This document shows, piece by piece, positions 8,577 through 63,785 of a DNA stretch of 64,000 nt. Source of the stretch: Rahnella victoriana (GTDB lineage: Bacteria > Pseudomonadota > Gammaproteobacteria > Enterobacterales > Enterobacteriaceae); NCBI RefSeq assembly GCF_004330295.1, contig NZ_SJOJ01000001.1:248001-312000 (forward strand), given 5' to 3'. Position 1 is the first letter of the stretch, and each line of letters starts with the position of its first letter. Both the position numbers and the translations under genes were made by a program. The notes below the pieces were generated by a model, which ran no database searches, was not told the origin of the DNA, and worked only from the letters and a program-made list of their open reading frames with translations.

Positions 8577-8653
8577 GGCTACGTAGCTCAGTTGGTTAGA
8601 GCACATCACTCATAATGATGGGGTCACAGGTTCGAATCCCGTCGTAGCCACCA
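8577..8653 (+). tRNA. metT: tRNA-Met (CAU), elongator type
   Basis: 77 nt with encoded CCA. Acceptor stem GGCTACG/CGTAGCC, anticodon stem CATCA/TGATG, anticodon CAT. First gene of the tRNA operon. The symbol follows the E. coli cluster order. Confidence 0.95.
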
Positions 8654-8661
8654 TCTTTTTT

Positions 8662-8746
8662 GCGGGAGTGGCGAAATTGGTAGACGCACTAGATTTAGGT
8701 TCTAGCGCCGCAAGGTGTGCGAGTTCAAGTCTCGCCTCCCGCACCA
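8662..8746 (+). tRNA. leuW: tRNA-Leu (UAG)
   Basis: 85 nt with encoded CCA and a long variable arm, as expected of a type II tRNA. Acceptor stem GCGGGAG/CTCCCGC; anticodon stem CTAGA/TCTAG with loop TTTAGGT gives anticodon TAG. Confidence 0.95.
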
Positions 8747-8770
8747 TTTCATAGAGTCGGCAGCACAGTT

Positions 8771-8845
8771 GGGGTATCGCCAAGCGGTAAGGCACTGGTT
8801 TTTGATACCAGCATTCCCAGGTTCGAATCCTGGTACCCCAGCCAT
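8771..8845 (+). tRNA. glnU: tRNA-Gln (UUG)
   Basis: 75 nt with encoded CCA. Acceptor stem TGGGGTA/TACCCCA, anticodon stem CTGGT/ACCAG, loop TTTTGAT, anticodon TTG. Confidence 0.95.
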
Positions 8846-8936
8846 ACTTCTTTCTGTATAATTGGTAAGCACTTGAAATTTATTATTAAGTTAGTTAAAT
8901 TAGTGCTTGAAGTTTTGAAGTAAGTCAGTAAAATTT

Positions 8937-9013
8937 GGCTACGTAGCTCAGCTGGTTAGAGCACATCACTCATAATGATGGGGTCACAGGTTCAAATCCC
9001 GTCGTAGCCACCA
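8937..9013 (+). tRNA. metU: tRNA-Met (CAU), second copy
   Basis: 77 nt, almost identical to the copy at 8577 apart from single changes in the D arm and T loop. Anticodon CAT, encoded CCA. Confidence 0.95.
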
Positions 9014-9057
9014 TTTTACTTGCAGTACACTGCTCAAAAGGTAGTGAGAAACAAAAT

Positions 9058-9132
9058 TGGGGTGTCGCCAAGCGGTAAGGCTCTGGTTTCTGATACCAGC
9101 ATACCCAGGTTCGAATCCTGGCACCCCAGCCA
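9058..9132 (+). tRNA. glnV: tRNA-Gln (CUG)
   Basis: 75 nt with encoded CCA. Acceptor stem TGGGGTG/CACCCCA, anticodon loop TTCTGAT, anticodon CTG. Last gene of the cluster; E. coli carries two further Gln tRNA genes here. Confidence 0.95.
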
Positions 9133-46853: not shown

Positions 46854-46882
46854 AAAAAAAAACCCGCTTCGGCGGGTTTTTT
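46854..46882. terminator. Bidirectional terminator efflux gene/cspE
   Basis: AACCCGC and GCGGGTT pair around TTCG, with A-run on one side and T-run on the other. Confidence 0.92.
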
Positions 46883-46897
46883 AGAATTCGGCTAAAG

Positions 46898-47107
46898 TCA
46901 GATAGCGATAACGTTAGCAGCCGACGGGCCTTTGGCACCATTGGTGATTTCGAACTCTACGCGCTGGCCTTCAGCAAGGGTTTTGAAACCGTTGCTGGAA
47001 ATAGCAGAGAAATGAACGAAAACATCTTTGCTGCCATCTTCAGGGGTAATGAAACCAAAACCTTTTGATTCATTGAACCACTTAACGCTACCTTTAATCT
47101 TAGACAT
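46898..47107 (-). CDS. cspE: Cold-shock-like protein CspE
   Basis: 69-residue RNA/DNA-binding beta barrel with RNP1 KGFGFI and RNP2 VFVHF. Nearly identical to E. coli CspE. Start 47107 is the family start; the frame extends upstream to 47137 without support. The ~175-bp upstream region may hold a long leader. crcB-cspE adjacency is as in E. coli apart from the inserted efflux genes. Confidence 0.96.
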
Positions 47108-47283
47108 CAAACTTACCTTTACGTGAATGTTGGACACAAAATGTGTGTCAAATACAGTACAGCAACAGATTTAACTTTTGTCCAGAATTCTGATAGCAAT
47201 AAGCGATAAACCTCTCACTCCTGGCATTTTGTTGCCGTTTTCTGCTGCCAGATTGCCCTTCTGAATCGTATAACATCAGTCAG

Positions 47284-62827: not shown

Positions 62828-63327
62828 ATACCGCTCCCTGATGATTGTTTGCTTTGCGGATAACCATTGTTCCGCACTTACTGCCCGATATCGCGCAGCT
62901 TCTTCCCTGCCGCGCCGATATTGTCCATCAACGTCAGAAAAGTTGCGCCGATCATCATAGTAAAGATCCCGTTGGTGGTGGTCGAGCAGGTGATATCAAA
63001 ATCGCGACGTTGTAACGGCTGGATTTCAGAACATAGGATCCACACCACCGGCGCGGCGCTCATCATCGCCGCAAATGACCCTGGTATTTTTCAGCGGATA
63101 CTCCGCCATTTTTGCCACATCGATTGCTTTTATACTGCTCTTTGCGAGACGTCTTCCAGATCTGAATACAACTCCCTGTAAATGCATCCAGCCTGTTTCT
63201 TTGTTCCGGCGGCAGGAATAAAGTCTCCTTGCTGCGGCAAAATCCGCAGCCGGAATTAGCGTTCCGAAAGACATAACTAGGCGACATTGTGTAATAATGC
63301 CGCGCACTTTGATTCACTCTAAATAAT
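62828..63327 (-). other. Gene-poor region with two orphan reading frames
   Basis: Minus-strand frames at 62878-63066 and 63026-63307 overlap in different frames and neither has a good ribosome binding site. The first encodes two hydrophobic stretches. They could be a decayed gene, but I recognise no family. No other element seen. Confidence 0.35.
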
Positions 63328-63407
63328 GGTGGCTCAGGTGGGGGCTTCGAAAGAAGCACCGGTTTTCCTAGTGTGTCCGGTACGCTAACCCCGTCTGAGC
63401 TGCCACC
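63328..63407 (+). ncRNA. Branched structured leader RNA (candidate cis-regulator)
   Basis: The 80 nt before a small gene fold into nested perfect stems: outer GGTGG/CCACC plus CTCAG/CTGAG; GGGG (63340-63343)/CCCC (63389-63392); hairpin GCTTC-GAAA-GAAGC (63344-63357); hairpin ACCGG/CCGGT (63358-63362 and 63377-63381). ACGCTAA is left single-stranded. Strong, compact multi-branch architecture typical of conserved regulatory RNA. I cannot name a family. Confidence 0.6.
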
Positions 63408-63458
63408 CAAGTTTAGCGTCTTGTGTTGCAGTCATTTAATCATCTAGGAGCTTTTAAA

Positions 63459-63785
63459 ATGACGAACACCGAAACTGCATTAACAGAAAACTCAATTACC
63501 GTCTTCCGCTCACTGATCGCAGAGCTGGAATTCAGTCACTTTGAAGATGCCCAGCTTTACGATCTCAGCGCGCTGGCCTCAGACTCTGCCGAAGGATTGT
63601 GTCATGGTCTGCTTTGCCTGAGCGAAGGGCTGGAGAATGGCGAGATCGTCCCGCCGGAAGGTATCCCGCAGATCAGCGCCTATCTCAAGGCGACCGCGCA
63701 TTTAGTGCCGGTGCTGTTTGAGCTGAGTGAACGGGCGAATGACGGGCTGGCAAAAGGCAGAGCACCGTCTGTTTTCACCCTGTAA
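63459..63785 (+). CDS. Hypothetical acidic protein, 108 residues
   Basis: Starts at ATG 63459 with AGGAG eight bases upstream. A mostly helical acidic protein (SVTVFRSL-like, AQLYDLSALASDSAEGLCHGLLCLSEGLENGE). No signal peptide or motif that I recognise. Preceded by the branched leader RNA 50 bp upstream, which may control it. Confidence 0.75.
   Translation: MTNTETALTENSITVFRSLIAELEFSHFEDAQLYDLSALASDSAEGLCHGLLCLSEGLENGEIVPPEGIPQISAYLKATAHLVPVLFELSERANDGLAKGRAPSVFTL

Follow-up and report, generated by a model that had tools for sequence, protein, structure and literature searches.

C4-type antisense RNAs and related systems

The C4 RNA is mostly known from phages P1 and P7, in which it is the immunity RNA. 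The immunity of phage P4 involves the CI RNA with two flanking complementary sequences, and symE/symR and tisB/istR are LexA-controlled type I toxin-antitoxin pairs. In P1/P7, the b' antisense arm of C4 lies partly over the ribosome-binding site of the target and the a' arm upstream of it, and GGW is the processing motif of C4-family RNAs, according to the accessible part of PMC5320573; binding of C4 around the ribosome-binding site is described in that of PMC12197685 as well. The IsrK RNA of Salmonella Gifsy-1 acts in trans as a translational activator of its own operon (PMC4825925, accessible part).

The locus described here is located in a 64,000-nucleotide stretch of the Rahnella victoriana genome (hereinafter, the window; all features of the unit are on the + strand) and, judging from sequence comparisons, very probably consists of a C4-type antisense RNA together with its own target, most likely keeping the downstream 108-codon gene (hereinafter ORF108) switched off. 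With the c4-icd-ant system of P1/P7 (RF01695 and RF03163), this locus shares the fold, the a' and b' arms, the upstream a1b1-like leader, the a2b2 target pair at the ribosome-binding site and the GGU at the expected processing site, and the exchange of specificity between its relatives resembles P1/P7 heteroimmunity. Unlike P1/P7, where icd and ant are downstream, the window unit includes a single gene of another family and no icd or ant, and is compact, chromosomal, adjacent to housekeeping genes and endowed with a LexA-like box at the promoter. The CI RNA of phage P4 is likewise an antisense RNA between upstream and downstream complementary sites in one transcript, a likeness by description, without sequence comparison; no P4-type genes are seen beside the window unit, and a literature search, mostly without subscription papers, for the P4 satellite with the CI RNA found nothing. 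With symE/symR and tisB/istR, the locus shares possible LexA control and an antisense RNA directed at the beginning of a small gene, the differences being that C4 is within the same leader as its target gene and that toxicity of ORF108 is hypothetical. As in the case of the Group 1 small RNAs of Acinetobacter baumannii, there are many C4-family RNAs per genome, with variable a' regions and a proposed co-option (PMC5320573); unlike the accounts in the accessible part of that report, an adjacent downstream target pair, with a gene attached, is identified and tested here. IsrK (RF01394) has similar upstream hairpins and is a leader RNA that pairs with the start region of the same operon, but it activates and is followed by an antirepressor (PMC4825925, accessible part), and the match in the window (63231-63292) reaches only 43.7 bits, below the cut-off of 50. 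The RNA thus belongs to an already known family, combined in this case with an unnamed gene into a compact chromosomal unit in which C4 is the likely brake.

Identity and fold of the RNA

A covariance-model scan of the whole window shows a full-length match to RF01695 at 63322-63410 (72.4 bits compared with the cut-off of 45, positions 1-87 of 87, E 3.7e-12), which makes the assignment of this RNA to the C4 family close to certain. The predicted mature 5' end is the GGU at 63328, the expected processing position, although GGW is missing there in some of the copies. An earlier note on this sequence had described a multi-branched RNA leader upstream of the gene, and such a structured leader is genuine, with the end of C4 48 nt from the ATG at 63459; the hairpins reported in that note are all present, namely, GCUUC-GAAA-GAAGC, CCGG/CCGG with a 14-nt loop (63363-63376) and GGGG/CCCC. 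The outer stem is there as well but, rather than two parts separated by a 3-nt bulge, it is better represented by a continuous 17-bp helix starting from U63327, which is the register in both the Rfam and the minimum-energy fold, the bulged register being an alternative. The ACGCTAA stretch that was thought to be unpaired is indeed unpaired in the Rfam fold but, in the minimum-energy fold, ACGCUA pairs with a part of the b' loop, so that the exposure of the a' and b' arms is a feature of the Rfam fold. The region 63328-63458 folds at -46.6 kcal/mol (z = -2.87, with 3 of 200 shuffled sequences folding equally well), compared with z = -1.15 and 21 of 200 shuffles for the reverse strand.

Compensatory changes in homologs, which the earlier note proposed to look for, are observed in the P1 and P2 stems. 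The C4 model built from 23 copies retrieved 60 copies (48 distinct) in 76 loci; the 23 model-building copies match by construction, and some of the 76 loci are the same place recorded twice. Over the 60 copies, two-sided changes are found in 8 of the 17 P1 pairs and in 4 of the 5 P2 pairs, and the signal is destroyed when the partners are slid. The P3 columns are out of register in two alignments; a pattern search, a partly circular check, finds pairable P3 arms in 60 of the 60 copies, with a two-sided change in one of these (L007).

Antisense arms and target sites

The a' antisense arm is the same ACGCTAA (63382-63388), which forms seven Watson-Crick pairs with the a2 target TTAGCGT (63413-63419), and the b' arm TTCCTAG, in the 14-nt loop (63365-63371), forms six Watson-Crick pairs and one G-U pair with the b2 target CTAGGAG (63444-63450) that includes the Shine-Dalgarno sequence AGGAG of ORF108. 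A permissive Rfam scan of the region 63100-63500 yielded, in addition to the IsrK match, a c4-a1b1-like element (RF03163) in the 5' leader at 63218-63270 (44.9 bits, slightly below the cut-off of 46.7, E 2.7e-10). Upstream copies of the targets are present as well, namely, a1, TTAGCGT, at 63256-63262 and b1, ACTAGG, at 63276-63281, the targets of a' and b', respectively.

The specificity of the pairing was assessed by swapping leaders among distinct arms, with 20,000 permutations per site. For a2 (15 distinct a' arms), the score with the own leader is 7.27 compared with 4.77 for the swapped leaders and, for b2 (30 distinct b' loops), 8.03 compared with 4.82; the respective values are 7.44 and 5.47 for a1, and 7.33 and 5.40 for b1, and at each of the four sites, none of the 20,000 permutations scored as high. 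In the 50 unique units, site a retains at least seven Watson-Crick pairs without exception, and site b scores at least 5.4 in 49, the exception being a copy with a deleted target. The own leader is strictly the best for 11 of the 30 b' loops. The b' pairing in the window is modest (6.4), and some foreign leaders reach 7 with its loop, so that this single arm is unconvincing when taken alone.

ORF108 and its relatives

ORF108 (63459-63785) encodes a helical protein of 108 amino acids for which searches of Pfam and NCBIfam identified no family, with only scattered Pfam matches of single members at E 0.05-0.08, and the PADLOC models and PDB sequences yielded nothing usable. Among the 25 aligned family members, 23 match PHROG 19484 (function unknown) at E ≤0.1, with the best value of 1.7e-27 and 0.079 for the window protein itself. 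The predicted structure consists of three helices (pLDDT 84.7, pTM 0.71), and a Foldseek search with it found no match at E ≤0.001 (best 0.94 for the PDB and 0.19 for viral models); a second look with VIA gave a best Z of 7.7, to helical hairpins, which is uninformative for helical proteins. Searches with tblastn for ORF108 in phages and plasmids (E 0.01), and for a divergent relative in phages, produced no match, and two scans of viral contigs detected no relative.

The gene was previously considered an orphan, which holds inasmuch as there is no known family or function, but not with respect to its distribution: relatives are detected in 31 of the 295 sampled genomes of its family, in 17 of the 154 genera. 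The 39 named loci come from Rahnella, Ewingella, Hafnia, Serratia, Budvicia, Enterobacillus, Samsonia, Dickeya, Pectobacterium and one uncultured Enterobacterales assembly. The dN/dS ratio is between 0.05 and 0.18 in seven of the nine pairs for which it could be computed, and 0.32 and 0.49 in the other two, dS being saturated in two further pairs; hence, ORF108 is under purifying selection in most of the pairs compared.

A C4 RNA is located directly upstream of the ORF108 relative in 40 of the 58 distinct loci; it is not there in the remaining 18, so that C4 is not obligatory for ORF108. Before the removal of duplicates, C4 was adjacent in 21 of 30 loci (L009-L038) and in 28 of 39 (L039-L077), leaving 20 of 69 without it, and in 4 of those 39, C4 is found 0.6-4 kb upstream instead. 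In four Pectobacterium loci (L070, L072, L076 and L077), C4 is replaced, upstream of the ORF108 relatives, by another conserved leader (TACGAAACTCGTAGTATCTGAAC... AAGGAGGATC), which might be a control RNA of a different kind.

The unit and exchange of its control block

The C4-ORF108 arrangement comprises a discrete unit of about 600 bp (63143-63785), with the left edge common to loci with different flanks. The homology between loci starts at 63141-63143 in many of these or, when the loci are more distant, further in, at 63154-63231; it is lost around 63721-63757, within the last codons of ORF108. The unit occupies several different sites in the chromosomes of enteric bacteria. Clustering of the 36 named loci above 15 kb by their flanks yields 12 groups on the left and 17 on the right, and one locus is common to some ten records of Pectobacterium and Samsonia. 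A match to one or the other of two test integrases is present within the 10-kb flanks in only 4 of 39 loci, and judged by these integrases, most ORF108 units are likely to be outside a prophage.

In the window, the unit is sandwiched between an acetyltransferase gene and genes for an O-antigen ligase-like protein, on the opposite strand immediately after ORF108, and a glycosyltransferase. A prophage at this site was considered and rejected: the nearest integrase domain on the contig is 13.3 kb away, next to a FolD-like gene (named from the translation). At the acetyltransferase-DUF2461 locus, the unit is intact in the window genome and in G298, shortened by deletion in G304 and G296, and absent from G255 and G297, where the gap measures about 317 bp; in G295, G300 and G301, the gaps are longer, and no unit was detected in them. 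For G302, G303 and G299, the compared stretch does not include both neighbors; a more distant ORF108 relative is present in G302 and G303. Elsewhere in the window, five tRNA genes are clustered at 8577-9129, and a cspA thermoregulator RNA (107.4 bits) is found at 46854-47239 on the minus strand.

Two pairs of loci are informative in this respect. L047 (Rahnella laticis) and its counterpart L048 (Rahnella sp. AA) represent two alleles of one locus, with the left flanks 94-100% identical and the ORF windows 90-98% identical, compared with only 40-56% in the control block; the differing block of ~200 bp corresponds to a1b1-C4-a2b2, and in either allele, the arms still match the targets of that allele. 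In the Pectobacterium loci L061 and L066, the long outer flanks are 91-96% identical and the unit about 90%, the alignment breaks down over a stretch of a few hundred bases bordering the unit, and the b' loops differ, each being matched by its own leader. Accordingly, the antisense and its target sites seemingly travel together.

The LexA-like box

Upstream of the leader, the window contains a LexA-like box, CTGT-N8-CCAG (63176-63191), with one mismatch to the LexA operator core CTGT-N8-ACAG; its position is fixed in the relatives, at -140 to -147 from C4 in the ORF108-linked loci. A putative -10 element, TAAAGT (63219-63224; TATAGT, TAGAGT or TACAGT in many relatives), is suggested by conservation, 43 nt downstream of the first base of the box; a scan for consensus promoters found none. 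In the 50 ORF108-linked loci, the core is perfect in 7 and has at most one mismatch in 26 (0.1% and 6.5%, respectively, in single-base shuffles), whereas 20 have two mismatches and 4 have three, so that no recognizable box is present in these; among the 41 distinct C4-linked loci, the corresponding numbers are 6 and 22. In the 98 parsed C4 loci, a box with at most one mismatch is found in 8 of the 12 ORF108-linked units, always at the same place, compared with 6 of the 86 others, at scattered positions, one of which, in L187, seems to hold the same box.

The scan for the box also covered all 18 distinct loci of the family that have no adjacent C4. It is perfect in 7 of the 8 Rahnella-type loci (L009, L012/L040, L013/L041 and L042-L046, except L044), which are mutually related and do not represent independent events. 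The five Pectobacterium-type loci (L027, L070, L072, L076 and L077) have a different upstream region, and no box was found in the five divergent loci (L034-L038). The perfect CTGT-N8-ACAG upstream of L009 (in the same genome as the window, C85:142552), L040-L043, L045 and L046 looks as if LexA had replaced the RNA brake. The recA and recN genes of the same genome (named from translations) have canonical boxes, and one of the recN boxes contains a CCAG half like that in the window. Because the box in the window is located further upstream than usual, upstream of the -35 region, the SOS link is put forward as a hypothesis, under which ORF108 is possibly inducible by DNA damage.

Proposed mechanism and alternatives

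By analogy with P1/P7, C4 is likely to act by repressing the translation of ORF108. Under the same analogy, a single transcript would start near 63228 and extend through a1b1, C4, a2b2 and ORF108, and C4 would be cut out of it, the 5' end being generated by RNase P. The freed C4, or the same segment in cis, would then pair with a2 and b2, hiding the ribosome-binding site and leaving ORF108 untranslated, and pairing at a1b1 may additionally end transcription early. ORF108 would be produced only while C4 is scarce, for example, when the unit is new in a naive cell or when transcription is induced, and incoming elements that carry the same targets could be affected by C4 in trans as well. For ORF108 itself, the role of a host-modulating effector of phage or satellite origin appears to be the most likely. 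Given that IsrK of Gifsy-1 activates its own operon, we infer the sign of the control rather than take it for granted.

The compact junction, the GNRA-type loop and the location in a 5' leader are features that could be expected of a cis-acting riboregulator that binds a ligand or a protein, as the earlier note hinted. However, the loop and the junction vary along with the matching targets, the opposite of a conserved binding pocket, the match to an antisense family is strong, and the unpaired parts are the arms for the ribosome-binding site of the next gene, so that a riboswitch or protein-binding leader was rejected and this explanation appears extremely improbable. An IsrK-like activation, whereby C4 in trans would open the leader and switch ORF108 on, draws on the resemblance of the upstream leader to IsrK, below the cut-off, and on the activation of anrP translation by IsrK (PMC4825925, accessible part); because b' pairs with the Shine-Dalgarno sequence itself and should block ribosomes, and the geometry is that of the P1/P7 C4, activation seems improbable as well. 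Roughly the same low probability attaches to the possibility that the locus is a decaying remnant of a prophage or satellite, without a present function: C4 is a phage element (PMC5320573 and PMC12197685, accessible parts), the protein relatives match a PHROG, and deletion-shortened copies occupy the same locus in G304 and G296, whereas the purifying selection in seven of the nine pairs, the matched pairing retained in 49 of the 50 unique units and the locus common to the Pectobacterium and Samsonia records are all at odds with decay.

Translational repression of ORF108 by C4, the preferred explanation, also has a sharper form that resembles a type I toxin-antitoxin system, with a toxic ORF108, C4 as the RNA antitoxin and LexA gating the promoter. 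In another enteric genome, a C4 RNA is found ahead of a gene for a SymE-family toxin, and the LexA-like box is located at a fixed place and is perfect in seven of the eight distinct Rahnella-type loci without an adjacent C4. On the other side, the protein is predicted to consist of three helices and has no diagnostic relatives, and ORFs without an adjacent C4 persist, which implies that C4 is not needed for viability; overall, this sharper form seems rather unlikely, albeit less so than the other alternatives.

If the SOS link is true, ORF108 would join the LexA-controlled, RNA-braked effectors. The locus draws attention to a protein family, as yet unnamed, that seemingly has to be kept under tight control, and the relatives comprise a natural series of matched antisense-target pairs, including an allele pair with the whole control block exchanged, that offer ready-made swaps for addressing how such RNAs stay separate in one cell.

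C4 RNAs across genomes

The window genome encodes seven C4 RNAs (L001-L007) with different antisense arms, and all 14 members of the genus that were searched carry between 2 and 9. When the seven are cross-paired, none of the foreign combinations attains both a ≥7 and b ≥6.4, the thresholds used, but there are near misses: the L002 RNA scores 6.4 and 7.2 with the L007 leader, a sum above the 7 and 5.4 of L007 itself, and L004 scores 7 and 6 with L001; L001 and L003 have the b site in common. The specificities within this genome are, accordingly, largely but not wholly distinct. Across genomes, specificity is shared by 1 of the 132 within-genome pairs (without similar flanks) compared with 56 of the 1686 between-genome pairs (21 of 2000 label shuffles as low); orthologs with diverged flanks may be among the 1686 and, together with the near misses, this renders the orthogonality of co-resident C4 units only suggestive.

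Of the 102 C4 places retrieved, 98 could be parsed (L163, L173, L185 and L211 were excluded). Within 1 kb downstream, there is an HTH_35-like gene alone in 36 cases, an ORF108 relative in 12, an Icd-like gene in 9 and small proteins of the L006/L007 type in 27 (one of these also counted under ORF108 and ten with HTH_35), whereas 15 have none of these classes; families represented among the 15, by one member each, are AntA, Rha, BRO, ORF6N, ankyrin-repeat and SymE-toxin. C4 thus appears to be a brake ahead of varied genes, many of which are phage regulators. A broader scenario, which we consider tentative and, on balance, doubtful, is that in the self-standing C4 units of enteric bacteria, the phage immunity RNA has turned into a brake that is portable, exchangeable and applied to varied effectors, with several largely distinct specificities per genome (seven in this case) and a1b1-C4-a2b2 blocks swapped by recombination, ORF108 being an SOS-gated effector that would be held by C4 or, where C4 was lost, by a perfect LexA operator.

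Several additional observations concern individual C4 loci. In genome G003, C4 is located directly upstream of SymE-family (PF08845) toxin genes in L150, L158 and L174, the assignment coming from a scan of the L150 protein, to which the other two are similar by eye; no publication on C4 antisense RNA with SymE, or in Rahnella, was found in a search mostly without subscription papers. Three of the seven C4 RNAs in the window genome have only an HTH_35-like gene downstream, and L003 and L004 adjoin apparent housekeeping genes (maltose and nitrate-sensing loci, by eye). L124 and L125 (genome G297, contig C2) are identical over all of the 1438 bases compared and are located near the two ends of a 743-kb contig. 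Among the 20 Escherichia coli records listed of 177, the stretch that matches the window C4 carries the label 'ash family protein' in 19 and 'Icd-like protein' in one (the records include NZ_CP195953.1:2759558); a part of the 'ash family' and 'Icd-like' annotation may be a translation of a non-coding element.
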